This document shows, one piece after another, positions 15,417 through 62,716 of a stretch of 64,000 bases of DNA. Every line of letters starts with the position of its first letter. Within the stretch, counting starts at the first letter, position 1. The notes under the pieces are model-generated. The model was not told the origin of the DNA, made no database searches, and saw nothing but the letters and a program-made list of their open reading frames with translations. Position numbers and translations under genes: made by a program. This stretch comes from Variovorax fucosicus (GTDB lineage Bacteria; Pseudomonadota; Gammaproteobacteria; Burkholderiales; Burkholderiaceae_C). Where the stretch lies: assembly GCF_030316825.1 (NCBI RefSeq), contig NZ_JASZYU010000001.1, positions 1,736,001 through 1,800,000 on the forward strand, given 5' to 3'.

Positions 15417-15470
15417 GCAGGCAGAGACCCATCTGCCGACTCGAGCTGCCCGAGCGTGCCGGGAAAAGCC

Positions 15471-15503
15471 AAAAAACCTGTACAGCCGCCAGGCCGTACA
15501 GGT
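15471..15503 (-). terminator. Rho-independent terminator of the lipoprotein gene
   Basis: An 8-bp perfect stem ACCTGTAC/GTACAGGT (15476-15503), with further GCC/GGC pairing inside, is followed on the minus strand by six T. It sits between the convergent ends of the lyase-like gene (15416) and the lipoprotein gene (15567), correctly placed to end the minus-strand transcript. Confidence 0.8.
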
Positions 15504-15566
15504 TCATGATCTTGAAGGGAGGGGGCGCTGCGAAACGCTCCCCTCGATCGCTAGCGGGTCGGGGCT

Positions 15567-16469: not shown

Positions 16470-16650
16470 GATCGAAACTCCGCGAATTGGTTGAACGTGC
16501 GCCCGGCGCCCCCCGAAGGGGAAGCTTTCGAGCGCGGGGAACGATGTCGGCTCCGCAGGCGAGCCAGGCGCGCCTTGGGCCGACACGGCAGCGGCGAGGC
16601 TGCGGCGAGTGAAGTGCATGGTGCTTTGCATGATTTCTCCAGGCGCCCCA

Positions 16651-19600: not shown

Positions 19601-22446
19601 GAAAGCGAAGTGATGCCGGTCGAGGCCGAAGTCGACAGCGACGTCAACTGGCTGAAGTTCACCGCGTCCGTGGGATTCACGCCCGCGGCGACATTGGTAA
19701 GGACCACTGGCGTTGTTGCACCCACGCCGCCCAGCGTCACAGACGTGTGGCCTGCGTTGTCATACATGACCGCATTGGAAAGACCCGTCGACAGCGAAGC
19801 AATGCCGGTCGACGTCGAAGTCGACAACGAGGTCACGGTGCTGTTGGTCGTGCTCAGGCCCGTCGACAGGCTGGTGATGCCGCTGGTCGCCGTGCTCAAG
19901 CCCGTGGACGTCGAGGTCGACAAGCTGGCCACGGTGCTGTCGGTCGTGCTCAAGCCGGTCGAGAGCGAACTGGCCGTGGTCGAGGTCGAAGTCGACAAAG
20001 AGGCCAGGTTGCTGCCGGTGGTCGACAAACCGGTCGACAGCGATGCAATTGCACTGCCTGACGTACTCAATCCTGTTGACAGCGAAGTGATGCCCGTGGA
20101 CGTTGAAGTCGAGAGCGTCTCGATCGCCGTGTTGGTGGCAAAGAGCTGGCTGCCGTTGATCGCGTCGGTGCTGGTGCCGTTGATCCGGCCTGCTGCCACG
20201 TTGGTGATGGTGCGTTCGGCGCCCGCCGAGCCGACGCTGACGGTGCTGGCAGGTGCCGCGCCGGCGAAGGTGTAGGCGGTGCCACCGATCGTCGCGCCGG
20301 CCGTTCCCACAGCGGCCGCCGTGGTGGAGCCCGAGCCCAGTGCCACATCGCCCGCGTTGGTTGCCTGCGCGCCCGATCCGATGGCGATGGCGGAGGTCCC
20401 GCTCGCCACCGAAAGGCCTCCAACGGCAAAAGAGTCTTTCCCGGAGGCATCCGCGAAAGTACCCAGCGCGACCGCGTTGTCCCCCGAAGCGCTGGAGAAC
20501 GAGCCCACAGCCGTTGCCTGCGTGCCGCTCGCGGCCGCCGTATTGCCGATGGCCACGCTGGAGCCCCCGCTGGCGCCCGCGTTGGTCCCCAGGGCCGTGG
20601 CGTTGCCGGCCGTAGCCTGCGCACTCGAGCCAAGCGCGATCGCAGTGGTCGCGCTGGCCGTGGCCGCGCTGCCGATGGCCACGCCATCGGTGGCCGCCGC
20701 CGTGGTGCTGGCACCCACGCCAACCGCAATGGAGTTTTTGCCCGCCGCCCCGTCGTTGGCGAAGTTGGCGCCTGTCGTGCCGCCGTCGTTCACACTGACA
20801 TAGTGCGTGGCGCTGGCTGTCAGGCTGTTGATGGCGCTGTTGGTCGCGAAGAGTTGCGAGCCATTGACTGCGTCGGTGCTGGTGCCGCTGAGCTGGCCTG
20901 CCGCCACGTTGGTGATGGTGCGTTCGGCGCCCGCCGAGCCGACGCTGACGGTGCTGGCAGGTGCCGCGCCGGCGAAGGTGTAGGCTTTGCCATTGATCGT
21001 CGCGCCGGCCGTTCCCACAGCGGCCGCCGTGGTGGAGCCCGAGCCCAGCGCCACATCGCCTGCGCTGGCCGCGGCAGTAGCCCCGTCGCCGATGGCTACG
21101 TTGCCCGCAATGCCCGCTGCCCCGGCCGTGCTGCCGTTACCCAGAGCCACTGAGCCCTGGCCGATGGCCTTGTTGTTGTTACCGATGGCGACCGCGCCAT
21201 TGGCCATGTTGGCCGCAGTGGCGGTGGCCGTGCCGTCGCTGTTGGCGATGTTGTCGGCACCACCGGTGAAGGCGCCCGTACCGCTCGAAAAGCTCGGGTC
21301 ACCAATCGACACGGCACCATTGCCATAGGCGGTATTGCGCGAACCGATGGATACGGACTTGCCGCCATTAGCCTGCGCGTGCGCACCGATGGCTACAGAT
21401 TCCAGTGAGGAAGCAACTGAGTTGTCGCCGACGGCAACGGACGAAACACCAGTGGCTCTTGCGCTAACGCCAAAGGCAGCGCTATTGCCGCCAGTTGCCG
21501 TAGCCCCAGTGCCGAAGGCGGAATCGTTCCCGCCGGCTGCCCTGGCAGAAGCACCAATCGCGGTGGAGCTGACACCGCCGGCAATGGCGGTGTGGCCGAT
21601 TGCGACGCTATCCGTGTTTGCATCCACGCCGGAGCCGATCCCGACCGCATAGTTTCCGTTCACCGTTAGGGTCCTGCCAATGGCAACGGTGTCCTGGCCA
21701 ATTGCCCTAGCCTGATAGCCGAGCGCGATACCCGTCTGGCCACCCGAGTAGCTCTGATCGCCGATGGCGATGCCAGAGTTGCTGTCCACTCTCGCAAGGT
21801 GTCCGATCGCCACCGAATCGTTGAAGGCCGCAGTAGCAAAGAAACCTACCGCAACAGACTCCACGCCGAGGGCGCTGGCGTTCGACCCGACTGCCGTTGC
21901 ATTGTCCGCACTCGCCCTCGTTTGCGTACCGATGGCATTTGCGTTGATGCCGCCGCGTGCAACGGCGTTGTACCCGATGGCAAGTCCTTGCTCACTGTCA
22001 GGCATCACAGTCGCAAAGGCACCGATGGCCGTCGCACGAAATGCCTGGGCCGTAGCAACCACACCCAACGCGGTTGCACTTTCGGCAGAAGCGCCTGCCA
22101 GGCACCCGATGGCGAGGGCAGAGGCCGGGTTGGCTGCAGCTTCGCAACCGGTGGTGACGTTGGTTTGGGTTCCGCCGCCAATGACGATGCTCGACGAATC
22201 GGCCATTGCATCGCGCGGAGCAAGCACGCCACCGCCAAGGAACATGCCCGCCGCAAGCACCGTAAGGGCGAAGCGCCCCGCCCCACCCCCAGCCGAAAGC
22301 CCAAGGCCCGAACCATCGCCGAGCGCGCCACCCTCCACGACGTTCACCGAAGAGCCGGCCTTCTTGCCAGCCGCCTTCGCCGTTTCCGGGGCGGCCACGA
22401 ATGTGCCGAGCGTCGTGTTCCAAATTGATCGATATACCTTGTTCAC
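16651..22446 (-). CDS. Trimeric autotransporter adhesin with Ser/Thr-rich stalk, 1931 aa
   Basis: This second type Vc adhesin starts with GTG at 22446, preceded by GAGGAGAAGACG. It carries an extended signal peptide region (MNKVYRSIWNTTLGTFVAAP) and a hydrophobic core at about residues 58-78. YadA-head repeats fill roughly residues 85-770, separated by ITNVAAG-type necks. Residues ~770-1550 are a highly regular stalk of Ser/Thr-rich coiled-coil repeats. A second small head follows, then the YadA anchor in the last ~95 residues (from AYTDSRVNGLQTSINDVAKK). Parts of its head are almost identical at DNA level to the 3014-aa adhesin. It is followed by a BamE/OmpA-type lipoprotein and preceded on the same strand by a DUF2827 gene. 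Confidence 0.95.
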   Translation of the reverse strand: MNKVYRSIWNTTLGTFVAAPETAKAAGKKAGSSVNVVEGGALGDGSGLGLSAGGGAGRFALTVLAAGMFLGGGVLAPRDAMADSSSIVIGGGTQTNVTTGCEAAANPASALAIGCLAGASAESATALGVVATAQAFRATAIGAFATVMPDSEQGLAIGYNAVARGGINANAIGTQTRASADNATAVGSNASALGVESVAVGFFATAAFNDSVAIGHLARVDSNSGIAIGDQSYSGGQTGIALGYQARAIGQDTVAIGRTLTVNGNYAVGIGSGVDANTDSVAIGHTAIAGGVSSTAIGASARAAGGNDSAFGTGATATGGNSAAFGVSARATGVSSVAVGDNSVASSLESVAIGAHAQANGGKSVSIGSRNTAYGNGAVSIGDPSFSSGTGAFTGGADNIANSDGTATATAANMANGAVAIGNNNKAIGQGSVALGNGSTAGAAGIAGNVAIGDGATAAASAGDVALGSGSTTAAAVGTAGATINGKAYTFAGAAPASTVSVGSAGAERTITNVAAGQLSGTSTDAVNGSQLFATNSAINSLTASATHYVSVNDGGTTGANFANDGAAGKNSIAVGVGASTTAAATDGVAIGSAATASATTAIALGSSAQATAGNATALGTNAGASGGSSVAIGNTAAASGTQATAVGSFSSASGDNAVALGTFADASGKDSFAVGGLSVASGTSAIAIGSGAQATNAGDVALGSGSTTAAAVGTAGATIGGTAYTFAGAAPASTVSVGSAGAERTITNVAAGRINGTSTDAINGSQLFATNTAIETLSTSTSTGITSLSTGLSTSGSAIASLSTGLSTTGSNLASLSTSTSTTASSLSTGLSTTDSTVASLSTSTSTGLSTATSGITSLSTGLSTTNSTVTSLSTSTSTGIASLSTGLSNAVMYDNAGHTSVTLGGVGATTPVVLTNVAAGVNPTDAVNFSQLTSLSTSASTGITSLSTGLSTTDSTVASLSTTVSSSTSGLSSLSTALSTTDSTVASLSTSTSTGLSTATSGIASLSTGLSTTDSTVASLSTSTSTGLSTATSSIASLSTSTSTGISSLSTGLSTTDSTVASLSTSTSTGLSTATSGIASLSTSTSTGIASLSTSLSTTDSTVASLSTSTSTGLSTATSSVASLSTSTSTGISSLSTGLSTTDSTVASLSTSTSTGLSTTTSGIASLSTGLSTTDSTVASLSTSTSTGIGSLSTGLSTTDSTVASLSTSTSTGLSTTTSGIASLSTGLSTTDSTVASLSTSTSTGISSLSTGLSTATSGIASLSTGLSTTDSTVASLSTSTSTGINSLSTGLSTATSGVASLSTGLSTTDSTVASLSTSTSTGLSTATSGIASLSTGLSTTDSTVASLSTSTSTGLSTATSGIASLSTGLSTTDSTVASLSTSTSTGLSTATSGIASLSTGLSTTDSTVASLSTSTSTGISSLSTGLSTTDSNLASLSTSTSTGISSLSTGLSTTDSTVASLSTSTSTGLSTATSGIASLSTGLSTTDSNLASLSTSTSTGLSTATSGIASLSTGLTSLSTSTSTGISSLSTGVASLSTGLSTTNSNLDSVGTGAAAALGGGASYNPTTGTWTAPSYTINNANGTVSTVNNVGDALTGVYTQGTRYFHANSTLPDSIASGANSVAIGPNAVASGDSAIAVGLGAQATGTNAVAIGTGALATGSVALGASSRAGGGGTAVGDFADAGGTPLSAAPTISRGTAIGYGAIVQQTGGVALGTGSVANRAAGTVTEAYTGVSVNAQAAVSVGSAGNERQITNVAGGTQATDAVNLRQLQAASAASVQYATNPDGSVNYNQVTLGNGQAPNGTVISNVAPGVKGTDAVNVNQLNSGVAAATAYTDSRVNGLQTSINDVAKKSYAGVASAMAMESAPYIPGKLTYAAGLGYYQSQSAVGVSLRRTSDNGRWSVTGGASVSPAGGVAVRAGISGVWD
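17790..20130 (-). repeat. Tandem coding repeats of the Ser/Thr coiled-coil stalk
   Basis: About 2.3 kb of the 1931-aa adhesin is built from three interchangeable units: SLSTGLSTTDSTVA (14 residues), SLSTSTSTGIS (11) and LSTATSGIA-type extensions that add 7. Unit lengths are thus multiples of 7 and 11, matching heptad and hendecad coiled-coil periods. More than half of the residues are Ser or Thr. One short interruption around 19640-19790 carries a neck-like TNVAAGVNPTDAVNFSQL motif. Such DNA is prone to slippage, so repeat number may vary between isolates. Confidence 0.9.
20144..20605 (-). repeat. Adhesin head segment near-identical to 6173-6634
   Basis: This is the partner of the block in the 3014-aa adhesin. 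The segment from about 20520 to 20730 also matches 6880-7090 of that gene, and 20900-21060 repeats part of the same neck/head unit, giving a mosaic pattern. Confidence 0.85.
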
Positions 22447-22751: not shown

Positions 22752-23888
22752 CTATAGCGCGGTGCGCTGCATCAGGCCGAGCAACAGGGTGTTGTAAGCC
22801 TCGGTGGCTGCGGCGTTGCCGGGGAGGTAGCGGCCGATCAGGCCGCGCTGGCGCTCCCGGTAGGCCTCGGCCTGGGCGTCGTGCGTGTCGATGGCCTCGA
22901 GCAGGCGGGCGCTGCCGCCGGCCACGTCGTTCCCCGGGTAGTAGTAGCCAAGATCCGCGCACAGGTGCGCGTTGTGTACCAGCGCATAGCCCTGCCAGCA
23001 GGTTTCCAGATAGAAGTAGTTGAGCGGGTTCTCCCACTGGTGCGAGACCACGATGTCGGTGTTCTGCGCCAGGAAGACGGGCGTTTCGTGCCGGCCGAGA
23101 AACACCGCCTTGTGGTCGCGGATGAGGTCGAGCTGGTTCATCAGCGTGATGAACTCCATGCTCTCCTTGGCGGGCCGTTCAGCGTTGGTAACCTGCAGCT
23201 GAGCGATGGCTTCAGGCCGCGTGCGGTAGGCCAACTCGGCAATGAAGACCGGGTAGAGGCAGAACTTGACGACGTTGATGTTGGGCTCCATCACGCTGAG
23301 CCGGCGGGGGCCGGCGTGCGGGTGGTAGATGCCGGCATGGGGCAGGTCGCGCGTGCGTTCGTCCAGAAACACCGGGCTCCAGACGAAAGGCACGGGGCGC
23401 GCCTCGGCCCGGCGCAGCACTTCGAAGTAGGGTTGGCTGATATTTGCCACCTGCGGAACCATCCAGATGTCGTCGTAGCGCCGGTTCACGAACAGGTTCT
23501 GCCCCCAGAGCGGCTTGTTGAACAGCATGGACTCCATGGCGCTCACGTATTCGCAGCCGCAGCAGTAAGACACGAGCCGCGTGCCGCGGCGCTTGAGATA
23601 GTCGGTCTGCTCCGGGCCGATCTGGCCGCCAAGCTCGATGAGAACGTCGACGCTGTCCTTGGCGCTCTCGAAAGGAACCGTGGGCCAGCGTGTCTGGTCC
23701 CAGGGCAGGGCCGGCGTGATCGGGATGGCCGTGGTGTTGACCAGTACCACCGAGGCCACGGCCGGGCAGTGCTTCAGGGCTTCCGCCAGGAACACGGCGT
23801 TTTGCTTGATGCCGTTGTTCCAGAGGGTTTCGGCTTCGTGGTGCAGGCCGATGGTGATTCCTACTCGGAGGCTTGTATTAGTCGCCAT
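22752..23888 (-). CDS. DUF2827 protein, candidate glycosyltransferase (copy 1)
   Basis: The 378-aa soluble protein has no signal peptide or membrane segment. It shares with the two neighbours at 24041-26340 a set of spaced motifs: W.NG..QN..FL near residue 25, YDDIW..P, WSP.FL, MEPNINVVK, a KAVFLGRHE segment, VVSHQWENPLNYFY and a C-terminal ALVHN...GYYYPGND...G. These match the family of unknown function DUF2827. The C-terminal pattern (a conserved acidic/His stretch, then LVHN and a glycine-rich turn) resembles the nucleotide-sugar half of GT-B glycosyltransferases, which is my inference. It lies directly upstream of the Ser/Thr-rich adhesin on the same strand and may be co-transcribed with it. 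Confidence 0.8.
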   Translation of the reverse strand: MATNTSLRVGITIGLHHEAETLWNNGIKQNAVFLAEALKHCPAVASVVLVNTTAIPITPALPWDQTRWPTVPFESAKDSVDVLIELGGQIGPEQTDYLKRRGTRLVSYCCGCEYVSAMESMLFNKPLWGQNLFVNRRYDDIWMVPQVANISQPYFEVLRRAEARPVPFVWSPVFLDERTRDLPHAGIYHPHAGPRRLSVMEPNINVVKFCLYPVFIAELAYRTRPEAIAQLQVTNAERPAKESMEFITLMNQLDLIRDHKAVFLGRHETPVFLAQNTDIVVSHQWENPLNYFYLETCWQGYALVHNAHLCADLGYYYPGNDVAGGSARLLEAIDTHDAQAEAYRERQRGLIGRYLPGNAAATEAYNTLLLGLMQRTAL

Positions 23889-52017: not shown

Positions 52018-53229
52018 ATGTTGATGTCGAGTCGATCGCCCGCAGCGCCCTACGACGGCCGCATGGTCGGCTGGCTGTCGGTCGGCCAGCTCATCACCTG
52101 GGGCAGCGTGTTCTATGCATTCGCGCTGCTGATGGCGCCGGTCGAGCAGGCGCTGGGCTTGAGCCGCGCACAGTCGTCGCTGGCATTCAGCCTCGCGCTG
52201 CTGGCCGAAGGCGTGATGGCGTGGACGGTCGGCCGCTGGATCGACCGCGGCCACGAACGCGCCGTGATGACCGGGGGCTCGCTCGTGATGGCCGCCGGCC
52301 TCTTTGCCCACAGCTTCATCCAGAACGCAGCCGGCTTCTACGCCGTGTGGATCGTGCTCGGCGCGGCACTGGCCGCCACCCTCTACAACCCGGCGTTCGC
52401 GATCGTGACGCGCCGCTTTCCAGATGACTTTCGCCGCGCCATCATCACGCTGACATTTCTGGGCGGGCTGGCCAGCACGGTGTTCATCCCGCTGGTCGCG
52501 GGGCTGGTGGGCGCGCTGGGCTGGCGGCACGCGCTGTGGGTGCTGGCAGCGATCCACCTGTTCGTCTGCGTCCCGCTGCATGCACGGGTGCTGCGCCACG
52601 CGCCGCCGGCGCGTGCCAAGACCGACGCACCGGCCGGCACTGCACCCCTGCCGGTCGCGCACTACCTGCGCAGCGCACCGTTCCTGCTGGTGGGCGTGTT
52701 CGTGGTGCTGCTGATGGCCGTGACCGTGGCCCTGCCGCCGCACATGGTGAGCCTGCTGCGCGAAAGCGGGCTGTCGGAGTCGTGGGCGATCGCGATTCCC
52801 GCCAGCATCGGCCTGGTGCAGGTGCTGGGACGCGCGCTGCTCTACTTCTTCGAACACCGCTTCGACCTGCACCTGGCGAATCGGTTGATCCCGTGCCTGA
52901 TCCCGCTCGGGCTCGTCGCCTTGCTGGCCGGCGGTGGCCATGCGGGCGCGGCGCTGCTGTTCGTGGCGCTCTACGGCATGGGTAACGGCATGCTGACGAT
53001 CGTCAAGGGCACGGCCATCGCGCAGTACGTGAACCGCGACCACGTTGCCACGCTCAATGGCGCGCTCGGCTTGCCGAGCGCCATCGCGCGTGCCGTCGCG
53101 CCGCTGATGCTGGGCCTGCTGTGGACGCCGGCGCTGGGCTACACCGCGGGCCTGTGGGTGCTGCTGGTCGTGAGCGTGGTGGCGGTGCTGGCGCTGGTGG
53201 GCGCGCAGCGGTTCAGCGCGCGGACCTGA
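52018..53229 (+). CDS. MFS transporter
   Basis: The 403-aa protein has about 12 transmembrane helices. Helix 1 starts MVGWLSVGQLITWGSVFYAF, resembling the monocarboxylate/oxalate-type MFS group; the 2-3 loop carries GRWIDRGHER, the family A-motif. ATG 52018 was chosen; a second one lies two codons later. Substrate unknown. Its 3' end overlaps the convergent zinc-ribbon gene by 17 nt. Confidence 0.88.
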   Translation: MLMSSRSPAAPYDGRMVGWLSVGQLITWGSVFYAFALLMAPVEQALGLSRAQSSLAFSLALLAEGVMAWTVGRWIDRGHERAVMTGGSLVMAAGLFAHSFIQNAAGFYAVWIVLGAALAATLYNPAFAIVTRRFPDDFRRAIITLTFLGGLASTVFIPLVAGLVGALGWRHALWVLAAIHLFVCVPLHARVLRHAPPARAKTDAPAGTAPLPVAHYLRSAPFLLVGVFVVLLMAVTVALPPHMVSLLRESGLSESWAIAIPASIGLVQVLGRALLYFFEHRFDLHLANRLIPCLIPLGLVALLAGGGHAGAALLFVALYGMGNGMLTIVKGTAIAQYVNRDHVATLNGALGLPSAIARAVAPLMLGLLWTPALGYTAGLWVLLVVSVVAVLALVGAQRFSART

Positions 53230-53467
53230 ACATCACGATCAGCATCACGATACCGGCCAGGAAGGCGAGCAGCCGCACCACCCACGGCACCACCAGCCAG
53301 GCGCCGACGACCGCTGCAATCTTGCCGAGCAGCCCGGCATTGACGAGCGGCTCGCGCCGCCCCGCGGCGGGCGCGGTGCTGCCGGGCACCGGCGCACCGC
53401 ACGAAGGACATGTGCTGGCCTGCGTCGACACCTGTTTGCCGCATTCGGGACATGCGATGAGCGCCAT
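53213..53467 (-). CDS. Zinc-ribbon membrane protein
   Basis: The 84-aa protein begins with a zinc ribbon (CPECGKQVSTQASTCPSCG: two CxxC pairs), a Pro/Ala linker and two hydrophobic helices (GKIAAVVGAWLVVPWVVRLL, FLAGIVMLIVMF). Function unknown. It follows the OmpA-type gene on the same strand after 14 bp and could be transcribed with the CsgG-like operon, but it does not share its themes. Confidence 0.8.
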   Translation of the reverse strand: MALIACPECGKQVSTQASTCPSCGAPVPGSTAPAAGRREPLVNAGLLGKIAAVVGAWLVVPWVVRLLAFLAGIVMLIVMFRSAR

Positions 53468-53481
53468 GGTCGTTCTCCTCC

Positions 53482-54189
53482 TCAGGATTTCTTGCCCGCC
53501 ACCGCGGTGGGTGGCTGGATGATGATCTCGACGCGCCGATTGCGTTGCCGGCCGTCCGGGTCGTCACTGCCATCGGGTCGGGTGTTCGATGCAAGCGGCC
53601 GCTGCTTGCCGAACCCGTGCACCGCGAACGCGCGGGCCGGCTCGCCCTGCAGCCGGGCGGCCACGGCCTGTGCGCGCCGCTTCGAGAGCACTTCGTTGTA
53701 GGCATCGGTGCCTTTGCCGTCGGAGTGTCCGTTGATGGTGACCGGCGCTTCGGGGTAGCTGCGCAAGAGCTCGGCAGCCTTCTCGAGCGAGGCGCGCGCA
53801 TCGGGCCGCAGCTCGGCCTTGTCGAAATCGAACAGCACGTCGGCGGGCAGGTCGATCACGATGGCCTGCTGCTCGGTCTGGCGCGCCTGCAGCGTGTCGA
53901 GCAGTTCGCGCGTTACGGCGACGCGGGCCGGTGGCACTTCGGCCAGGCGGAACACCGTGCTCGGCGCCGCTGCGCTGCCCAGCTGCGACGGCGTGGCGCT
54001 GCTGGCGAGCGCGCCCGCCACACCGGCCTTGCGGAACTCCGTGCGCGGCGCATCGGCCACGCGCACGAAGCTGCTCGGCACGTCCTTCAGGCTCCGGGCG
54101 ACGCGCTCGACCGTGAGGGCCGACGCAGGCGCCACCAGCCCCGTGCCGGCGCACCACAACACGGCCAGCACGTGCGCGCCTCGCGTCAT
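53482..54189 (-). CDS. OmpA-type peptidoglycan-binding protein (last gene of CsgG-like operon)
   Basis: The 235-aa protein has a signal peptide (cut near ASA) and a ~90-residue N-terminal region of unknown fold. The C-terminal OmpA-like domain is clear (LFDFDKAELRPDARASLEKA ... GHSDGKGTDAYNEVLSKRRA ... NRRVEIII). It should sit in the periplasm or outer membrane and bind peptidoglycan, perhaps to fix the CsgG-like secretion or anchor complex to the wall. Its start overlaps the preceding gene by 4 nt. Confidence 0.85.
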   Translation of the reverse strand: MTRGAHVLAVLWCAGTGLVAPASALTVERVARSLKDVPSSFVRVADAPRTEFRKAGVAGALASSATPSQLGSAAAPSTVFRLAEVPPARVAVTRELLDTLQARQTEQQAIVIDLPADVLFDFDKAELRPDARASLEKAAELLRSYPEAPVTINGHSDGKGTDAYNEVLSKRRAQAVAARLQGEPARAFAVHGFGKQRPLASNTRPDGSDDPDGRQRNRRVEIIIQPPTAVAGKKS

Positions 54190-54776
54190 GTACCGCCTTG
54201 CTGCAACGGCAGCGTGATCGAGAGGCCGGGGCCCGCGGTGTTGTCGGGCGTGTTGCCCTCGTTGAATACCAGCCGCAACTGCGGTGTGCCGGGCGGCACG
54301 GCGCCAAGGAACACCAGCTTGCCTTCCATCGTGTCGCCCGACACGATGCGCAGATAGCGGTTGTCCTCAGGCGGCCGCAGCATCAGGCGGTTGCCCGCGG
54401 GGTCGGCCAGGTAGGTGACGGTCTCCGCAAGGTTGGTGAAGTTGGTCTCGCGGCTGCCGAAGGACGCGCTCACGGTGAGCACGGTCGCGTCCTCGCCCAG
54501 CTCGATGTTCTTCACGCGCACCGTCAGGCCCGCGCTCGCGACGCCCTGCACGCTCAGCGCGACCTGCTTGGGCGCTGCCGCGGCTGCGGGTGCCGGCATC
54601 GCAGCGGTCGGTGGCGGCGCGGCGAGTGCAGGCGTGGGTTGTGCTGCAGGTGCGATTGGGGCGGGTGAAACTGCGGCGGGCGCAGTCGACGCTGGCGGTG
54701 CACTCTTGTCGCCGCACCCGGCGAGCGCCAAGGCGAACACGATGGCCAGCAACGTGATGGAGGATTCGGGTTTCAT
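54186..54776 (-). CDS. Lipoprotein of the CsgG-like operon
   Basis: The 196-aa lipoprotein has lipobox LAGC (Cys21), then a ~50-residue Ala/Pro linker and a beta-rich domain (VALSVQGVASAGLTVRVKNI ... LTVSASFGSRETNFTNLAET ... GPGLSITLPLQ). I do not recognise the domain. Four-nt overlaps with both neighbours show tight translational coupling. An outer-membrane-tethered chaperone or guide for the fibre proteins is a possible role, by analogy of position with csgE/csgF genes only. Confidence 0.75.
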   Translation of the reverse strand: MKPESSITLLAIVFALALAGCGDKSAPPASTAPAAVSPAPIAPAAQPTPALAAPPPTAAMPAPAAAAAPKQVALSVQGVASAGLTVRVKNIELGEDATVLTVSASFGSRETNFTNLAETVTYLADPAGNRLMLRPPEDNRYLRIVSGDTMEGKLVFLGAVPPGTPQLRLVFNEGNTPDNTAGPGLSITLPLQQGGT

Positions 54777-55120
54777 CGGATGTTGACGCTGTTGACGTTG
54801 GCGTTCGGCACCGTGCCGCCCTTGCAATCGGCGTCGGCGCGCACGTCGCGGCTGTTGCGCCCGGTGACGATCACCGTCTTGCCCTGCAGCGCGCGGCCGT
54901 CGATGTTGACGCTGTTGACGTTGCCGGCTGCCGCCGTGTTCTTCGTATTGCCGTCGGCGCATTGCACCTGTACGTTCTGCGCCTTGTTGCCGCTGACCTC
55001 TATGCGGTTGGTGCCGCTGCCCGGGTTCTCGATGACGGTGGTGCCAGCCGCGGCAGCGGGCGCCGCCGCCACGATGCCGAGAGAACAGAAGATGTGAAGT
55101 AAATGGCTGCGGTGATGCAT
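54773..55120 (-). CDS. Exported NSV-repeat protein (115 aa), candidate fibre subunit
   Basis: After a signal peptide (cut near AAAAG) the mature ~90 residues hold two copies of the repeat shared in this operon: RIEVSGNKAQNVQVQC ... AAAGNVNSVNIDG and KTVIVTGRNSRDVRADADC ... NANVNSVNIR. The pattern I.V.GN.A..V..(G)..NSV.I recurs in the 119- and 1166-aa proteins. This copy has Cys residues in place of the glycines of the loop, so a disulfide is possible. ATG 55120 was chosen as the start of the signal peptide. Such short repeat proteins beside a CsgG-like pore recall curli subunits. Confidence 0.8.
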   Translation of the reverse strand: MHHRSHLLHIFCSLGIVAAAPAAAAGTTVIENPGSGTNRIEVSGNKAQNVQVQCADGNTKNTAAAGNVNSVNIDGRALQGKTVIVTGRNSRDVRADADCKGGTVPNANVNSVNIR

Positions 55121-55131
55121 GCAGAAGCTCC

Positions 55132-55983
55132 TCAAGGTTGGCGCGTCAGGCTGTCGCGCCCGGGCAGGCTGCCGGGCGGCGCCGAAGGTTGCGCGGCCAC
55201 GCCTTCGGGCTGAACGGCGCCCATGCCCGGCAGGCGGGCCAGCGAACTCGCTGTCTTGGCGACGGGTGGTGCAGTCTGCGCGCCCGCGGCTGCCGACGCT
55301 GCCTCGGGCGACAAACCGCCCTGCCGGCGGATGGTGTTTTCCAGGTCGCTCGCAAAGCGCTCGGCCAGGGCCATTTCTTCCGTCGCCATTTCGCCGCCCA
55401 GCGAGGTGATGGCCTCGGTCGCCTGCCGGGCGCTGGTGCTGCCGGGCGGTGCGAGCCGCTGGGTCAGGCGCGCATAGCCGAGCGCCTTGATGTTGTCCTG
55501 CGGCGCGCCGCGCCCGTTCTTGTAGAGCTCGCTCAGCCGCTGCATCGCACGCGGGTCGCCACGCACCGCGCCGAGCAGGTACCAGCGGTAGGCCTGGCCG
55601 ATGTCGGACACGCCGCTGCGGTTGCTTTGATAGGCGTCGCCCAACAGCGTCAGCAGGTTCGGGTTGTTGGTGCGCAGCGCGTCTTCTTTCAGCCGCGCGA
55701 TCTCGCTCTGGTACAGCGGCCCCTGGCAACCCGGGTTGACCACGCCGCGCTCGAGCGCCTGCTGGCACGACTCGACGTAGCGCGCCCCGGTGCCGGCCAC
55801 CGGAGCGCCGATGGTGCCGGACGAGGTCGCAGGCGCGGGGGTGCCGCCGGTACCGGCCGCCACCGACGCGCGCGCCGCGCCGCTTTGCGTCACGGCGCCC
55901 GTGCTCGCGGCCGCCTGTGCCCACGCCAGCCCGCCATGCAGCAACGCGAGCATGGCCAGCACCGGCAAGGCGAACTGGCGCAT
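55132..55983 (-). CDS. Exported Sel1-like repeat protein
   Basis: The 283-aa protein has a signal peptide (cut near AWAQA), a Ser/Thr/Ala-rich linker, and Sel1-type helical repeats around residues 100-175 (LTLLGDAYQSNRSGVSDIGQ, AYRWYLLGAVRGDPRAMQRL, SELYKNGRGAPQDNIKALGY). The C-terminal third is low-complexity Ala/Pro. Sel1 repeats mediate protein contacts; a periplasmic adaptor role is inferred. The start overlaps the CsgG-like gene's stop by 1 nt (TGATG). Confidence 0.8.
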   Translation of the reverse strand: MRQFALPVLAMLALLHGGLAWAQAAASTGAVTQSGAARASVAAGTGGTPAPATSSGTIGAPVAGTGARYVESCQQALERGVVNPGCQGPLYQSEIARLKEDALRTNNPNLLTLLGDAYQSNRSGVSDIGQAYRWYLLGAVRGDPRAMQRLSELYKNGRGAPQDNIKALGYARLTQRLAPPGSTSARQATEAITSLGGEMATEEMALAERFASDLENTIRRQGGLSPEAASAAAGAQTAPPVAKTASSLARLPGMGAVQPEGVAAQPSAPPGSLPGRDSLTRQP

Positions 55984-57140
55984 CAGGTGCCCGCCTTCGC
56001 CGGTGGCGCGCCGGCCTGAGTGACCAGCGGCGGATCCCAGGGCATCGGCACGCCGAAGAACAGCGGCTCGAAGCCCTGCCAGGTCAGCACGTCGACGCTG
56101 TCGCCGACCTGCGGGTAGCGTGTCGAGTACACGTTGCGCAGCGCCTCGCGCGTGGGCTCGTCGAGCTTCTGGTTGACGGTCACGTTCTGGCCGTACTTGC
56201 GCAGCATCACCTGGACCAGTCCGATCTTCAGCTGGGGCGTGAGGCCTTCAAACGAGGCGCGCATGTTGTCGACCACCACCGGATCCGGCACGCCGTTCGG
56301 AATGCAGCGCCAGTAAGGCGTGTTGGTGGCCTTGCCCATGAGCTCGAGCACGCTCAGGTCGACCAGCGTGCGGATGGCCGAGTGCCGGCCCTGCAGGTAG
56401 CGGCCTTCGAGCTTGAAGCCGAACGAGTCGCCGTAGAAGCCCAGGCTCGCGTTGTCTTCTGCCGTGAAGTTCAGCACCTTGATGACGTTCGAGGCCTGGA
56501 TGCGCGGCACCATCTGCTGAGTGCTGAAGCTCACCAGGTTGAGGTCGAGCGCGAGCGCCGACAGGATGGCGGTGCGCTTCACGTCGGCGCCCAGCGCGGT
56601 CTCGCCCTTGCCCTTGCCGAACTCGACGCTGGCCGAGTTCGAGCGGCCGGCGCCCGACAGCGCGCGGTCGAACTCGGTAAGCGCGCCGGTGATGAGGAAG
56701 TCGGGCATCGTCACACCGAACTTCGCGCCGAGCTGCGCCTGCGAGATCAGGTAGTCGGGGTGGTACGGCACGTACACGATGCGCGCGCCGATGCGGTTGA
56801 CCGCGGTGCGAACCATCTCTGTGATGTCGCCCGGGATCTCGGAGCCCACCAGCGGGTTCGACAGGTTGGTCGCATCGAGGATGTTGCGGGTCTGCATGTA
56901 GACCACCGGATCGCCGTCCTTGTAGATGTCGAGCATGCGGCCGAAGCGCCCGAGCGAGGTGGCGTAGTTGCTGAGATTGGCCGAGGGAAGTTGCTTGGCG
57001 GCCTCCCTGGCGGCCAGCAGCTTGTCGGCGTCGCCGAGTGCGTTTTCAGTGGTGGCACAGCCGGCCAGCAACGTGGTGGCGGCCAGGGCGAGGATCCCGC
57101 GCCGGAAGCGCGAAGTGGTTTGCGAGGTCATGCGTTTCAC
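55983..57140 (-). CDS. CsgG/HfaB-like outer-membrane secretion lipoprotein
   Basis: The 385-aa lipoprotein has lipobox LAGC (Cys28 from the GTG start; an ATG three codons later is equally possible). The core matches the CsgG family: PDFLITGALTEFDRAL, a strand pair around LALDLNLVSFSTQQMVPRIQ, and SFGFKLEGRYLQGRHSAIRT followed by LVDLSVLELMG and PYW, parallel to the CsgG C-terminal helix region. A C-terminal extension (~300-370; LKIGLVQVMLRKYGQNVTVN) resembles a peptidoglycan-binding-like helical domain absent from E. coli CsgG. CsgG forms a nonameric pore exporting amyloid subunits; HfaB is the holdfast-anchor homologue. It is the hallmark gene of this operon. Confidence 0.82.
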   Translation of the reverse strand: MKRMTSQTTSRFRRGILALAATTLLAGCATTENALGDADKLLAAREAAKQLPSANLSNYATSLGRFGRMLDIYKDGDPVVYMQTRNILDATNLSNPLVGSEIPGDITEMVRTAVNRIGARIVYVPYHPDYLISQAQLGAKFGVTMPDFLITGALTEFDRALSGAGRSNSASVEFGKGKGETALGADVKRTAILSALALDLNLVSFSTQQMVPRIQASNVIKVLNFTAEDNASLGFYGDSFGFKLEGRYLQGRHSAIRTLVDLSVLELMGKATNTPYWRCIPNGVPDPVVVDNMRASFEGLTPQLKIGLVQVMLRKYGQNVTVNQKLDEPTREALRNVYSTRYPQVGDSVDVLTWQGFEPLFFGVPMPWDPPLVTQAGAPPAKAGT

Positions 57141-57195
57141 GGGAAAAGTTGTTCTTGTTCATGCTCGTTCGCCGGACGCTGTTGCGCAGCGCAGC

Positions 57196-57627
57196 TCATC
57201 GGCCGTTGTTCAGGACCGTGATGTTCTCCACCCCCTTGCCATCGACGAACAGCGTCACGTTGCCGCTCACGTTGCCCTGAATGGTCGGGCTCGCGATGCG
57301 CAGCTGGCCATCGGCGCCCTGCTGCACGTTGTTGTAGTTGGTGCGGATCACCAGGTTGGTCTGGTTCGGCGGCAGCTTCAGCGTGCCGTCGGGCTGCACC
57401 AGCGCCTGCTGCTCCACCACCTTGTTCTGTTCGAGCGCCCGCGCGACGCGTGCCTTGGCCGTGACGCCTGGCGTCACGCCGTCGACCAGCTTGACGCCGG
57501 CTTCCTTCGAATCCTTGTAGGCGCCCATCGCTTCGCCGTAGTTGACGAGCTGTGCCGAGGCGTGGCCGCCCAGCGCGAGCAGTGCGGCGCCCAGCGCGGC
57601 GGTGGTGGTGATGCGGACGAAGTTCAT
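57196..57627 (-). CDS. Exported 143-aa protein of the CsgG-like operon
   Basis: The product has a signal peptide (MNFVRITTTAALGAALLALG, cut near ASAQ), a helical middle (KARVARALEQNKVVEQQALV) and a beta-like C-terminus with NNVQQGADGQLRIAS, then IQGNVSGNVTLFVDGKGVEN. The end echoes the GN/V.. style of the operon repeats without the NSV core. AAGGAG precedes the ATG. A minor subunit, nucleator or export guide is possible; the layout resembles small genes next to hfaB. No family recognised. Confidence 0.72.
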   Translation of the reverse strand: MNFVRITTTAALGAALLALGGHASAQLVNYGEAMGAYKDSKEAGVKLVDGVTPGVTAKARVARALEQNKVVEQQALVQPDGTLKLPPNQTNLVIRTNYNNVQQGADGQLRIASPTIQGNVSGNVTLFVDGKGVENITVLNNGR

Positions 57628-57647
57628 GGTGACTCTCCTTGCATGCG

Positions 57648-60600
57648 TTACATGCTGAGCACGGTGACGGCCGGGCCCACGGTGACGCTGTGGTTGACCA
57701 CGCCGCTCGACGGCTTGGTCACCGTGTAGCCGACGTTCGCAGCCCACGGCGTGTTGCCGGCAACGCCGGCCGAACCGGCCAGCACGCCGGCCGTGGTGCG
57801 CACGCTGCCCGTGGTGATGCCGACGCCGGCCATCGACTGGTTGCCGACGATCGCGACGCTGCCCGTGATCACGCCGCGGTTGATGACCGAGTTCGACGTG
57901 CCGCCCGCCATGGCCGTGCCGCGGTTGCCGGCGATGACCACGTTGCCGGCCAGCACGCCGCGGTTCACCACCGAGTTGACCGTGCCGCCGCCCTGCGCGC
58001 TGCCCTGGTTGCCGAGGATGGCAATACGGCCGGTCAGGAGCCCCTGGTTGTCGACGCTGTTCACCATGCCGCCGCCGTTGGCGCTGCCGCGGTTGCCGAT
58101 GATGGCGATGTTGCTGCTGATCAGGTTGCCGTTGCCGCGGTTGTGCACGCTGTTGACCGTGCCGCTGCCTTGCGCCGAGCCCGTGTTGCCGGCGATGACG
58201 ATGTTGCTGGCGCCGATGCGGCCCTGGTTGATCACCGAGTTGACCGTGCCGCCACCCTGCGTGCTGCCCTGGTTGCCCAGGATGTGGATCTGGCTGCCGG
58301 CGATGTTGCCGTTGTTGATCACGCTGTTGGCAATACCGCCGCCCTCGACCGAGCCGCGGTTGCCGATGATCGTGATGTTGCTGCCGCCCAGCGTGCCCTG
58401 GTTGTCGACGCTGTTGATGCTGCCCTTTTGCGCGACCCGGCCCTGGTTGCCGGAGATCGTGACGTTGGTGCCCGCCATGCGCGCGCCTTCGCGGTTGCGC
58501 ACGCTGTTGGCGCTGACGTCTTCGGAGCCGACCTGCGCGCTGCCTCGGTTGGCTGCGATGGTGAGCGAGGAGCCGGTCAGCTGGCCTTCGTTGTAGACGC
58601 TGTTGGCGACCGCCGTCTTGCCGTCGCGCGTGCTCACGCCTTCGGCGTTGTTGGCCGTGATGGTGGTCTGCGTCGCATCGGTTGCGCCCGACTTGTCGAC
58701 CACCGCGCTGTTGGCCAGCGCCACGCCCTTGTCGGCCGAGACGTCGGTCGCGGTGTTGCCGAGCAACTGCATGCTGCTGGCACGCAGCGCGCCCATCACC
58801 TGCACCGCATTGGCGCTGGCGTAGCCTACGCCGCGGTCCATCACCGCATAGCCCGCGACAGTGCCTTCGTCGCCATGACTGCGCACGTTCTCGGCGCGGT
58901 TGTTCGACAGCGTGATGGCGCTGCCCTGCATGTCGCCGCTGCCGTTGAGCGCCAGCGCATTGGCATTGACACGTCCGCCGTCCGCATTGAGCGCCTTCGC
59001 CACGTTGCCCTGGATGCTCACCGGCGAACCGTTGAGGCGCACGCCGCCCTCGCCTTCGAGGTAGATGCCGTTGGCCACGAGGATGCCGTTCTTCGCGCTG
59101 CCGATACCGGCGGCCTGGTTGTAGCCGCCGCCGGTGCGCACGTCGTCGGCCGTATTGTTCGCGATGGTGATCGGGCTGCCCGTCACGCTCGCATCGCGGT
59201 AGCCCGCCAGGGCGTTCACCAGCGCCGTGCCGCCGATGGCGCCGACGTTGTTGGCGCGGTTGCCGGCCACCGAGATCGGCGAGGCGGCGTCGACGCGCAC
59301 GTTCTGGTAGAGCACCACTGCGTTGGTGGCCGCGCGGGCCACGCTCTTCTCGCTGAACACGTTGCCGGGGCCGGCCATCGAGCTGGCGCCGGTCGACACC
59401 TGCGACGCGGTGTTGCCGCTGACGCTGGTGGCTGCCGACAGGCGCGAGCCGCCGCCCTCGCCCTTTTCCACGCTCACGCTGTTGGCCACCAGCTTGCCGC
59501 CCTGCGCCGACAGGTCGCGCGCGGTGTTGCCCGAGAGCGCGACCGAGCCCGCATCCACCGTGGAGCCGAACACCCCCAGGCTGTTGGCGAGTGCCATCGC
59601 GTTCTGCTTGCTCGAGAACAGCAGGCCGCCGCCGGCGCTGCCCTCGAAGCCGCTGGCGCGTACGTTCTCGGCGGTGTTGCCTGCGATGTTGAGCGTGCCG
59701 TTCTGCACGCGGGCATCGCTCAGCAGCGCGCTGTTGGCGGCGGCGAGCCCGCCCGAACCCTGCACGCCGCGCGCGGTATTGCCGCTGATCGTGATCGGCG
59801 TGTTCTGCAAGGTGGCATTGCTGTCGAGCGCCAGGCTGTTGGCCAGCGCACGGCCGTTGCGTTCGAACGAGCCCACCACGCCGCCACCGATGCTCGCGCC
59901 GCCGCCGGCGGTGTTGATGTCGCTCGCGGTGTTGCCGCTCAGCGTGACGTTGCTGCGCTGCGTGGTCGACTGCTGCAGCCAGATGCTGTTGGCCGCGGCC
60001 GCACCGCCGACGGCCTGCACCTTGTCGGCCGTATTGCCGGTGAGCGTGTGCTGCGTGGCACCCTGCACGTCGCCCTTCTGGATCGACACGCTGTTGGCGA
60101 GCGCCGATGCCGACATGGTCACGTCGGCCAGGGCGCCCATCAGCAGCGAGCCGCTGCCGCCGCTGGCTTCTACCTTGCTCGCGCGGTTGCCCGACTGCAA
60201 GGCCTGGTAGTTGCGCAGATCGCTGCCCGTGTAGTCGGCCAGGTTCACGCTGTTGGCCAGGGCGCTGCCGCCGAGTGCCCACATGCCGTTGGTGTCGTTG
60301 CCCTGCTGCGTGATGCGCGCGCCCTTGACCTGGCTGCCGGCCGCCGCAAAGGAGTTGGCGGCCGCCACGCCGCTCAGATCCGCCGAGGCGACCATGCCGC
60401 CACCGACGCTGCCCGAACCACCGCCCGCGCGCACGTCGCGCGCCGTGTTGCCACCCTGGGTGACGGTCAGGTCTTCGGCCGTGCTGCGCGCCAGCGTGGT
60501 GGCGTTGGCGAGTGCCGCCCCGCCGACCGATTGCACGCCGTCGGCCTTGTTGCCGGTGACCGACAGCTGCATGCGGCGCATTTCGGATTCGTCGGCCAGC

Positions 60601-61148
60601 ACGCCGTTGGCCGTGGCGCGGCCCGGCAGCTGGAGCGAGCCGATCGCGCCGAGGGCAATCGCGCCCTTGGCACCGATCGCCTCGATGTTGTTTGCCTGGT
60701 TGCCGCTCACCAGCACGCGGCTGTCGGCCAGCGGCCGGCGGCCGGTGCCGCCCGAGAGCAGCACCGTGTTGGCCGTGGCCGCACCGCCCACCGCGGAGAC
60801 GAAGCCCTGCACCTGGTTTTGCAGCACGCTGACCTGCGAGTTGCCGACCTGCAGCGCCGACAGGCCGATGGTGTTGGCCTGCGCGGTGGAAACGAGTTCG
60901 GCCGAGGCCGCGAGCCCGAGGCCGGCGCCGGCCTTGCCGCCGCTCGCACTGACCTGCGCCGGGGCCCGGTTGCCGGTGGCGATGGCGCTGGAGCGCCCGT
61001 CCACCTCGCTGCCGGGCCGGGCCGTGAGCCAGCCCAGGCCATGGAGCACGCCCTCCTGCGCCTGCGCCGCCAGCGGCAGCGCGAAGCCGGCGCCAAGCAG
61101 CGCCATGGCGATCAGGGTCTTGCGGTGTTGCACGAGGGCGAAGGGCAC
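57648..61148 (-). CDS. Large exported NSV-repeat surface protein (1166 aa)
   Basis: A GTG start at 61148 with GGAG 6 nt upstream gives a signal peptide (LIAMALLGAGFALPLAAQAQ). The whole mature protein is made of repeats pairing a strand ending GN.A..V or GN.GS with a later ANSV or VNSV. In the N-terminal two thirds the repeats are irregular (30-60 residues); near the C-terminus they become a regular ladder of ~29 residues. This predicts an extended beta-solenoid or amyloid-like fibre. No YadA anchor, LPXTG or autotransporter barrel is present, so export must depend on another pore, most simply the CsgG-like protein two genes downstream. Confidence 0.82.
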   Translation of the reverse strand: MPFALVQHRKTLIAMALLGAGFALPLAAQAQEGVLHGLGWLTARPGSEVDGRSSAIATGNRAPAQVSASGGKAGAGLGLAASAELVSTAQANTIGLSALQVGNSQVSVLQNQVQGFVSAVGGAATANTVLLSGGTGRRPLADSRVLVSGNQANNIEAIGAKGAIALGAIGSLQLPGRATANGVLADESEMRRMQLSVTGNKADGVQSVGGAALANATTLARSTAEDLTVTQGGNTARDVRAGGGSGSVGGGMVASADLSGVAAANSFAAAGSQVKGARITQQGNDTNGMWALGGSALANSVNLADYTGSDLRNYQALQSGNRASKVEASGGSGSLLMGALADVTMSASALANSVSIQKGDVQGATQHTLTGNTADKVQAVGGAAAANSIWLQQSTTQRSNVTLSGNTASDINTAGGGASIGGGVVGSFERNGRALANSLALDSNATLQNTPITISGNTARGVQGSGGLAAANSALLSDARVQNGTLNIAGNTAENVRASGFEGSAGGGLLFSSKQNAMALANSLGVFGSTVDAGSVALSGNTARDLSAQGGKLVANSVSVEKGEGGGSRLSAATSVSGNTASQVSTGASSMAGPGNVFSEKSVARAATNAVVLYQNVRVDAASPISVAGNRANNVGAIGGTALVNALAGYRDASVTGSPITIANNTADDVRTGGGYNQAAGIGSAKNGILVANGIYLEGEGGVRLNGSPVSIQGNVAKALNADGGRVNANALALNGSGDMQGSAITLSNNRAENVRSHGDEGTVAGYAVMDRGVGYASANAVQVMGALRASSMQLLGNTATDVSADKGVALANSAVVDKSGATDATQTTITANNAEGVSTRDGKTAVANSVYNEGQLTGSSLTIAANRGSAQVGSEDVSANSVRNREGARMAGTNVTISGNQGRVAQKGSINSVDNQGTLGGSNITIIGNRGSVEGGGIANSVINNGNIAGSQIHILGNQGSTQGGGTVNSVINQGRIGASNIVIAGNTGSAQGSGTVNSVHNRGNGNLISSNIAIIGNRGSANGGGMVNSVDNQGLLTGRIAILGNQGSAQGGGTVNSVVNRGVLAGNVVIAGNRGTAMAGGTSNSVINRGVITGSVAIVGNQSMAGVGITTGSVRTTAGVLAGSAGVAGNTPWAANVGYTVTKPSSGVVNHSVTVGPAVTVLSM
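57830..58490 (-). repeat. Regular ~29-residue repeat ladder in the 1166-aa protein
   Basis: About eight tandem units of 26-31 residues follow the consensus GN.GS..GGG..NSV.N.G preceded by a short strand (I.I.). Six are close to identical in the core. This is a coding beta-solenoid-type repeat, not a CRISPR or DNA-level satellite, because spacing and variation follow the reading frame. Confidence 0.85.
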
Positions 61149-61204
61149 AGGCGTCTCCAGAACAGGTCGTCGGGCCGTGGATCGGCCCGCGGGACGGGTC
61201 GAAC

Positions 61205-61564
61205 TCAGTTGATGTTCACGGAGTTGACGTTGGCCGTGCCGCCGATCGCCTTGATGTCTTCGGCCGTGTTGCCGGTGACCATGATTTCGCTGTTCTTGAC
61301 CTTGGAGCCGGTGATGTTCACGCTGTTGACGTTGGCCATACCGCTCATCTCGACGCCGGCCAGCTTGAGGCCCACCGAGCCGCCGCCGGAGATGACATTC
61401 TTGGCGCTGTTGTTGCTCACCGTGATCTTGCTGTTGGTGACTTCGGAGCCGGTCGAACCGGAGGCCTTGCCCACGCCCGGAATGCTGATGTTGCCGCTCT
61501 GCGCGAAGGCCGAGGCGGAAAAGAATGCGAGCGTGACGACGCCGGCTGCAGCGAATTTCTTCAT
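61205..61564 (-). CDS. Exported NSV-repeat protein (119 aa), candidate major subunit
   Basis: The protein has a signal peptide (MKKFAAAGVVTLAFFSASAF, cut near FAQ) and ~98 mature residues with two shared repeats: KITVSNNSAKNVISGGGSVG ... NVNSVNITG and EIMVTGNTAEDIKAIGGTAN with VNSVNIN at the end. It is glycine- and asparagine-rich, with no cysteine in the mature part. It is the first gene of the operon, with AGGAG upstream and its own AT-rich promoter region, so it is probably the most expressed. Size, position and repeats fit a curlin-like subunit; the repeat is not the curlin repeat itself. Confidence 0.82.
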   Translation of the reverse strand: MKKFAAAGVVTLAFFSASAFAQSGNISIPGVGKASGSTGSEVTNSKITVSNNSAKNVISGGGSVGLKLAGVEMSGMANVNSVNITGSKVKNSEIMVTGNTAEDIKAIGGTANVNSVNIN

Positions 61565-62089
61565 GTGTTCACTCCTGAAAGGATTGCGGTTGAAGGGTTG
61601 AAGCGCAGTCCGGGGGTGTGGACCACGAGCGGCCAATCTACCGAGGGCACATGACAAATTGCTTCTTATTTGTAAATCCATGTTGACGGCGCTATTCCTT
61701 ACAAAAAGAAATAGACGGCAGCGATCCACGCGAACTTTTTTCGCATCGATTTATGGGCCGTAAATTAAACGCGCGCGTCGCATAGAGGGCCGAAAAAGCG
61801 CTGCCCGAATTCGCACGTGAACGCTTGCTCTTAATTAAAGCGGCATTCGGTAATGCGGGGATTGCGTGGCGGGTGGGCATGCCAACGGATGACCGAGTCC
61901 GGACACCGCACGCGGGCGATGTCAACCCTTGGCGGCCGAATCAAAACGAATCCAAACGCAAATGCAATGGATTCTGCAATATTTAGTTACAAGTCCTTGC
62001 CGCTAAAGGGAATTCACGTCGGACGAGTCTGACAGGAGGCGCGCACTCACTCGCGCAAACTTGAGTCGTTCTCACTTCCCGAATACCTA
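61565..62089. promoter_or_regulatory. AT-rich divergent region upstream of the CsgG-like operon
   Basis: This 525-bp gap separates the operon's first gene (minus) from a lipoprotein gene (plus). The centre (about 61650-61990) is AT-rich against GC-rich neighbours, as expected for a regulated promoter or a silenced region. I see no gene and no operator I can name. Confidence 0.5.
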
Positions 62090-62716
62090 ATGTCGACCTT
62101 TCGTGATCGTTTTTGTTCCTCTTTTTTCGCGCGACGCGCATCGGCCGCGGCCGTCGTGGTGCTTTCGGCGGCCGGCCTGTCCGCCTGCAAATCCGATATC
62201 GCTTTTCCGGCCGATGCCGATATCGCGCAGGCGCTGCAGGCCAACTTCGAGCAGGACGCCAACAACGCCAAGGCACGCGAGCTGGTTCAGACGCTGGGTG
62301 GCGAGAAGGGACAACTCGATTACAAGGTGCGCCGGGTGATCTACCGTCAAGGCGCATTCGAGGCGCAGTACGACGTGAGCCTGCGCATGGCCCGCAGCGG
62401 CGCCGAGAGCCTGCAAAAGCTCTACGCCACGATGATCCCCAAGGAAGAGGCCGCGAAGCTGCCCGAGCAGACGCTGGCGTCTTACGAGAAGTGGCTCGGC
62501 GACAGCGCGCAGGCCCTGGAGAAAACCAACCCGCCGCAGGCCACGGCGCTGCGCGACACGCTGCGCAAGCTCGGCGAGTGCTATCGCGACACCAAGGCGA
62601 ATGACAGCGTGGCACTGATGGACGGGCTCGGTGCGCTGATCTCGCCCGCGCGCGACGGCTGGTACGCCGACAAGCTGCAGTCGCCCCAGGCGCAGTTGCG
62701 CTGCCTGCCGGTGTAG
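62090..62716 (+). CDS. Lipoprotein of unknown function
   Basis: The 208-aa protein has a signal with lipobox LSAC (Cys33). The mature part is mostly helical and charged (ADIAQALQANFEQDANNAKA ... QTLASYEKWLGDSAQALEKT) and ends with a Cys-containing tail. I do not recognise a family. It is divergent from the CsgG-like operon across the AT-rich gap and might be co-regulated. Confidence 0.75.
   Translation: MSTFRDRFCSSFFARRASAAAVVVLSAAGLSACKSDIAFPADADIAQALQANFEQDANNAKARELVQTLGGEKGQLDYKVRRVIYRQGAFEAQYDVSLRMARSGAESLQKLYATMIPKEEAAKLPEQTLASYEKWLGDSAQALEKTNPPQATALRDTLRKLGECYRDTKANDSVALMDGLGALISPARDGWYADKLQSPQAQLRCLPV

Follow-up and report, generated by a model that had tools for sequence, protein, structure and literature searches.

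In a 64-kb stretch of Variovorax fucosicus DNA (the window, meaning the whole stretch that was analyzed), we identify a conserved block of nine close-set minus-strand genes, A to I (53213-61564, transcribed from 61564 towards 53213), together with a divergent gene, J, in which a gene related to those of the pore proteins CsgG and HfaB is found with three genes whose products share one repeat, which we refer to as the NSV repeat. The CsgG/HfaB-like lipoprotein, D (385 residues; 55983..57140, minus strand), carries an additional C-terminal domain (residues 283-366; 56043..56294, minus strand) that resembles peptidoglycan-binding domains of the PG_binding_1 type. The repeat proteins, also encoded on the minus strand, are A (nsvS1, 119 residues; 61205..61564), B (nsvL, 1166 residues, with a GTG start; 57648..61148), which is predicted to form a beta-solenoid, and F (nsvS2, 115 residues; 54773..55120). 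The reading that we favor, with a probability of roughly 0.6, is that D forms a pore in the outer membrane, anchored to peptidoglycan, through which A, B and F are exported, that these fold as solenoids at the cell surface, and that protein C acts as their escort. A previous, sequence-only reading of this DNA had proposed a CsgG operon of eight genes. Its pore relationship, its association of the NSV repeat with the pore gene, its extra domain of D and its solenoid for B all stand, as do the tight same-strand packing and, by an open reading frame check, the gene sizes and the three overlapping junctions (D/E, 1 nt at 55983; F/G, 4 nt at 54773-54776; G/H, 4 nt at 54186-54189). The operon size does not, since gene I brings the total to nine, with J linked to them on the opposite strand. 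The earlier reading is thus supported in part, and its further points, that the repeat proteins would be the cargo of D and would form a fiber, are hypotheses.

D is related to CsgG and HfaB and has an additional C-terminal domain

Comparison of profiles places D in the CsgG/HfaB superfamily. Against a set of 13 CsgG/HfaB sequences, the D profile scored 96.9% (E-value (E) 1.6e-10, D columns 16-290), and seven control comparisons scored at most 6.7%; the similarity that had been anticipated for 55983-57140 is therefore found, and it is found with profile methods only. Weak matches of D within the family and the order are longer CsgG-like proteins of 500-600 residues, which we term group 2. The match between the D profile and group 2 extended along the full length of D (99.9%, E 1e-36), and group 2 in turn matched the CsgG/HfaB set at 97.7%. 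In addition, a profile made from five D-type and 17 related sequences (the A5 profile) returned CsgG as the top five of the 22 Protein Data Bank (PDB) sequences listed (E 4.2e-4 to 1.3e-3), and matched a genuine HfaB, i.e., one scoring over the HfaB cut-off, at E 1.1e-10 over positions 52-264. D is also a predicted outer-membrane lipoprotein by virtue of a lipobox cysteine, Cys28, with G27 and C28 invariant in 20 aligned sequences.

The sequence-only reading had noted that D continues beyond the CsgG part, and both sequence and model comparisons indicate that this extra domain is peptidoglycan-binding-like. For example, the C-terminal ~80 residues of D matched the PG_binding_1 region of group 2 (profile, 92.6%, E 4.4e-7), and when the A5 profile was compared with PDB, the entries below CsgG were peptidoglycan-binding domains, matched by the C-terminal part of this profile. 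Within the D model, this C-terminal domain alone is well predicted, and structure alignment placed it closest to the portion of AmpDh2 that binds peptidoglycan (Z 7.3, root-mean-square deviation (rmsd) 2.7, 76 aligned residues) and then to two further peptidoglycan-binding proteins (Z 7.0 and 6.8), ahead of a next row at 4.8, although Z-values below 8 may, by the tool's own warning, reflect a common arrangement. D itself has no Pfam match to PG_binding_1, and its homolog in locus L080 falls under the cut-off (E 0.0041). Among the seven group 2 proteins that we checked, six contain PG_binding_1 over the cut-off, and all seven end in DUF4384.

The pore gene and the repeat genes travel together

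Using D as a query against our genome collection, we identified 33 loci, in Variovorax, Xenophilus, Pseudacidovorax, Acidovorax, Xylophilus, Ottowia, Diaphorobacter and Brachymonas, with three loci placed at higher rank only; we take the genera of most of these loci to belong to the Comamonadaceae. The order A-B-C-D-E-F-G-H-I is conserved in the 33 loci to the limits of their contigs, with B and C present in 33, A in 32 and E in 30; F, G and H were each identified in 28, and I in 27. The contigs of L002, L008, L010, L017 and L032 end early, that of L010 beginning inside B and hence lacking A. Among the 28 loci with sufficient contig, F is present in 28 and I in 27 (I was not found in L013); this count of F excludes two rows, L008 and L018, in which gene A had been matched, and the F gene of L018 was seen in its neighborhood. 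Gene J is upstream and divergent in 29 of the 33 loci, being absent from the three Brachymonas loci and past the contig edge in L010. Identity to the D of the window is 64-90% across 19 aligned loci. In the draft locus L008, genes B and C are split across frames (5934-9940), which we attribute to frameshifts or assembly errors. Our surveys are not independent of one another, because the collections have genomes in common: L005 and L006 are one strain, and L008 is suggested to be the same as G837, and L001 the same as G869.

The tie between pore and repeat extends to whole genomes. In 299 genomes of the family, the D profile gave 15 strong matches (E <= 4.1e-197) before a drop to 1.9e-20, and the genomes matched by the A profile (E <= 0.001) were the same 15, with no match in the remaining 284. 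This A profile also catches B and F, and every NSV match listed was located within 5 kb of D. In G016, a genome from another family, the sole NSV match genome-wide is a 107-residue protein inside its D operon, an operon that lacks B. Repeat proteins lacking the pore gene in most genomes, an outcome that would have spoken against the earlier reading, were not observed: the same 15 of 299 family genomes, and also G016, contain both, and CsgG-like and NSV-repeat genes lie close together in all 33 loci. Within the genus, D is present in four of 81 genomes and J in five of 81, i.e., the four with D and G878, in which J and A lie on a 3.4-kb contig that stops just past A, so that A occurs there without a detected D in an assembly that is 88% complete. 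The co-occurrence of D with the NSV repeat and the distribution within the genus show that the operon is patchy but travels as a block.

This distribution bears on whether D serves all three repeat proteins, or A and F only, in the manner of curli or Hfa, with B leaving the cell by another route or attaching independently. The G016 operon, with its small NSV protein and no B, is consistent with the narrower role, as are the many D relatives accompanied by small repeat proteins only and the size of the known CsgG substrates, which is far below 1166 residues. B is nevertheless encoded between A and D in 33 of 33 Comamonadaceae-type loci, and Pfam identifies no alternative transporter among the ten gene products of the operon, and we regard a pore for A and F only as improbable.

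A, B and F share one repeat, and B is predicted to be a long beta-solenoid

The N-termini of A, B and F appear signal-peptide-like by eye. B is built of some eight double units, each of 85 residues (about 51+34), followed by roughly ten units of 28-29 residues. A consists of a signal-like stretch with one long and one short unit, with the end ANVNSVNIN, and F of two units, with Cys residues present; these assignments were made partly by eye. The shared repeat noted earlier in the 119-, 1166- and 115-residue proteins is beyond chance in B, where the identity between positions 85 residues apart is 0.154, compared to 0.125 for the 95th percentile of the best lag in 200 shuffles, and where the motif GN.[AS], with V, I or L in the next 2-3 residues, occurs 16 times, compared to a mean of 1.7 and a maximum of 9 in 2000 shuffles. 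The motif counts of A (2; shuffle maximum 2) and F (1; 2) are within shuffle maxima, and we include A and F in the NSV repeat family because of profile evidence, as these counts alone do not exceed shuffles. Searched against its own genome, the A profile gave repeated matches to B, the best at E 7.7e-13, and also detected F (E 1.8e-7), and direct comparison of the A and F profiles gave 97.7% (E 1.8e-12), with reversed controls below 1%. Pfam matched nothing in A, B or F, so no curlin repeat (PF07012) is present in them, and a PF07012 scan, positive for its E. coli control, found none in the V. fucosicus genome.

An AlphaFold2 model of B has strands throughout (predicted local distance difference test (pLDDT) 79.2, predicted template modeling score (pTM) 0.79), and shows a confident all-strand solenoid over approximately residues 48-1136, in which the long units bear disordered loops. 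A second-look structure alignment ranked EtpA, an adhesin of enterotoxigenic Escherichia coli (ETEC), as the top match (Z 21.2, rmsd 5.0, 624 residues aligned), followed by alginate lyases and phage tailspikes. Model and alignment agree with the beta-solenoid that had been proposed for the large repeat protein, and B is predicted to be a long one. The likeness to EtpA would be one of fold class rather than of relationship: B shares the fold class of the EtpA/TpsA-type beta-helix adhesins but has no family match and no two-partner secretion (TPS) domain, and Pfam shows no TpsB gene among the ten genes.

A proposed export system, and points that weigh against it

In the mechanism that we propose, the CsgG part of D would form an outer-membrane pore and the C-terminal domain of D would hold peptidoglycan, which H may also bind; H (235 residues; 53482..54189, minus strand) has an OmpA C-terminal-type, peptidoglycan-binding domain (PF00691, E 2.5e-18, above the cut-off). 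A, B and F, all with a signal-like start and the common repeat, would be the cargo, B forming a long beta-solenoid rod that A and F, as one-double-unit forms, could cap, seed or join. Protein C (143 residues; 57196..57627, minus strand) has a signal-like N-terminus and a conserved end (IASP.I.GNV.GNVTL.V.G...NITVLN), and its gene is immediately before the pore gene, the place of HfaA or CsgF; it would be the escort or a surface anchor. E, G, I and J would be accessory. The surface location of the repeat proteins is an inference, as would be any fiber or amyloid nature.

A number of results weigh against this proposal. In a single-sequence Pfam search D has no match to CsgG (PF03783), and PF03783 searched against the V. 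fucosicus genome misses D and finds a different gene; in NCBIfam, D matches HfaB (NF037935) best, but at E 8e-4 and with 18.7 bits where the cut-off is 300; and searching PDB with a profile built from D alone gave no CsgG. The AlphaFold2 model of D, made with 20 close homologs, is poor (pLDDT 45.5), hence the pore fold is not seen, and transmembrane hairpins in D are only suggested, the strongest beta-amphipathic window being at 240-248, with another at 175-183. The model of B had no Foldseek match in PDB at E <= 0.001. The NSV repeats have no profile link to the repeats of the relatives' CsgG+PG-binding operons (<=0.6%), and no link could be detected between C and CsgF, HfaA or the proteins in the C position of these relatives. 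Two candidate kinships found no support on this basis, that of the two sets of repeats, though runs of V.I.GN are visible by eye in both, and that of C with CsgF (0.4% against five CsgF sequences), HfaA or the relatives' proteins, where only signal peptides align (one HfaA and two F28 sequences). C also has no Pfam or NCBIfam match. A Cas3 match to the D-only profile in PDB (E 0.18) was dismissed as chance, and Foldseek with the D model gave nothing at E <= 0.001.

The poor model and the hairpins, no more than suggested, would also fit a D that is not a pore but a periplasmic lipoprotein with the CsgG fold, like LpoB, working on the cell wall or serving as a scaffold for it, with A, B and F as periplasmic or outer-membrane-bound scaffolds. 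The peptidoglycan-binding-like domain of D and the OmpA domain of H are in keeping with such a role. The alignment of D to CsgG/HfaB, however, covers the segments of CsgG that bear its hairpins. D also has no LpoB match in NCBIfam, and its relatives repeatedly adjoin small secreted repeat proteins, as do CsgG and HfaB. We consider a non-pore D to be unlikely, and retain the anchored export pore.

Comparison with holdfast anchor and curli systems

CsgG-type export is known mainly from curli and the holdfast anchor. Like the HfaABD system of Caulobacter, the operon described here combines a CsgG-like lipoprotein with small and large secreted proteins, and HfaB is both the top NCBIfam match of D and within reach of the A5 profile. 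It differs in the low score of D (18.7 of 300 bits), in the added peptidoglycan-binding-like domain, in a protein C with no match to the one HfaA sequence compared, and in having the 1166-residue NSV protein B and the extra genes E to J. According to PMC6707917, HfaB lies below the outer membrane and is needed for HfaA and HfaD to be at the surface, where they anchor the holdfast polysaccharide. This precedent, with HfaB as the best NCBIfam match, would fit a system that anchors or secretes a polysaccharide or another partner, the NSV proteins being the anchor. Against it, Pfam finds no polysaccharide-enzyme family in the ten operon genes and no similarity was detected between C and the single HfaA examined, and we judge such a role very improbable.

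With curli (CsgG, CsgA/B, CsgE and CsgF), the operon shares the pore family and small secreted repeat proteins, but it contains no curlin repeat, its protein C shows no detectable likeness to CsgF, and its gene content differs. According to PMC3521004, secretion of curli subunits is believed to take place in the unfolded state, and up to 22 repeat units are reported for such subunits. Two Burkholderia operons were considered and dropped: the 'BiofilmReg' operon, which encodes an unrelated LysM/FecR protein (PMC5192318), and the B. thailandensis csgG operon BTH_I3204-3206, for which the passages considered describe three lipoprotein genes and name no repeat protein (PMC3966863).

A wider clan of CsgG proteins with peptidoglycan-binding domains

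The nearest relatives of D are the group 2 proteins of the Burkholderiales and beyond, which have the same domain order and the shared motif G-K-.-.-.-.-P-Y-W-.-C, and whose genes have small repeat proteins, and in many cases OmpA, encoded in their vicinity. They differ from D in their length and their terminal DUF4384, and the repeats and the C-position proteins of the wider clan have no profile link to the NSV repeats or to gene C. In 10 of the 20 neighborhoods fetched, the group 2 gene comes after genes for a small repeat protein and for a small protein in the C position. In loci L083, L086-L092, L097 and L099, small secreted proteins with N.A.G....A.QNLASN.G repeats are encoded directly before the CsgG+PG_binding_1+DUF4384 genes, and the same loci have a divergent response-regulator-like gene (by eye); these operons are apparently an undescribed curli-like family.

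We also searched 299 genomes of the phylum with the A5 profile and found 15 with a match better than 1e-60, ten of these outside the class; weaker matches were mostly to the peptidoglycan-binding part alone. In seven neighborhoods from outside the class, an OmpA-type gene is present in six, and in five the pore gene is directly preceded by genes for small secreted proteins with repeats (repeats by eye). In L165-L168 and L171, small repeat proteins with VQIQGNT...V.GGV units are encoded in tandem ahead of the CsgG+PG-binding genes, and OmpA genes follow these. Genes that we take, from labels given by eye, to be caspase/WD40-like, adhesin-like with DUF2807, and Sel1-like recur in the out-of-class neighborhoods and in L080. 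The latter, the G016 locus (11415-18857, minus strand), also contains OmpA, large WD40/caspase-like and TpsB/ShlB-like genes (by eye) upstream of its D operon. Our search of open-licence papers found no description of a CsgG protein with a peptidoglycan-binding domain, nor of these operons.

These comparisons allow a bolder version of the export reading, which we offer tentatively and at somewhat less than even odds: a CsgG-type pore stapled to the wall would export B unfolded, in its full 1166 residues, to make an external rod capped or seeded by A and F, so filling a role like that of TPS systems in the absence of TpsB, and the operon would be one branch of an undescribed CsgG+PG-binding clan with unrelated repeat cargo. 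If the export reading is right, the CsgG family also serves large beta-solenoid surface proteins and has versions tied to peptidoglycan, and such systems are spread across the Burkholderiales and beyond with unrelated repeat cargo. The range and size of the cargo of CsgG pores could then be tested in ordinary environmental bacteria, and many unannotated operons could be named.

Accessory genes and the surrounding window

Of the two partners foreseen by the sequence-only reading, the OmpA-type one stands, in H, while the Sel1 repeat of E (283 residues; 55132..55983, minus strand; signal-like N-terminus) is a weak match that falls under the cut-off (E 0.0019, 19.1 bits compared to 30.7). G (196 residues; 54186..54776, minus strand) is lipoprotein-like (LAGC), with an Ala/Pro-rich linker and a conserved C-terminal domain with no family match. 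I (84 residues; 53213..53467, minus strand) has a zinc ribbon (PF13248, E 1.7e-7, above the cut-off) and a hydrophobic C-terminal half, and the divergent J (208 residues; 62090..62716, plus strand) is lipoprotein-like (LSAC). The 525-bp region between A and J (61565..62089) is presumed to hold divergent promoters; a promoter scan found no sigma-70 consensus there (0 promoter-like sites). A terminator scan gave 11 terminator-like sites, compared to 7.8 +- 2.9 expected, and no tRNA or Rfam family was found in the window.

Elsewhere in the V. fucosicus genome, a second, distinct PF03783 match (E 2.3e-7) is located at C7:74728-75012 (locus L173), within a 474-residue open frame. The window also contains a CHASE2/PAS histidine kinase (796 residues) followed by a 730-residue alginate-lyase and laminin-G-type protein (10840-15416, plus strand), and a DUF2827 protein (22752-23888, minus strand; E 3.2e-139). 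In addition, Pfam identifies two very large trimeric autotransporter adhesins, of 3014 and 1931 residues (346-9390 and 16651-22446, both minus strand), each with ESPR and YadA head/stalk repeats and with a YadA anchor listed for the 1931-residue protein only, and the presence of two such giant adhesins indicates that this region is rich in surface proteins.

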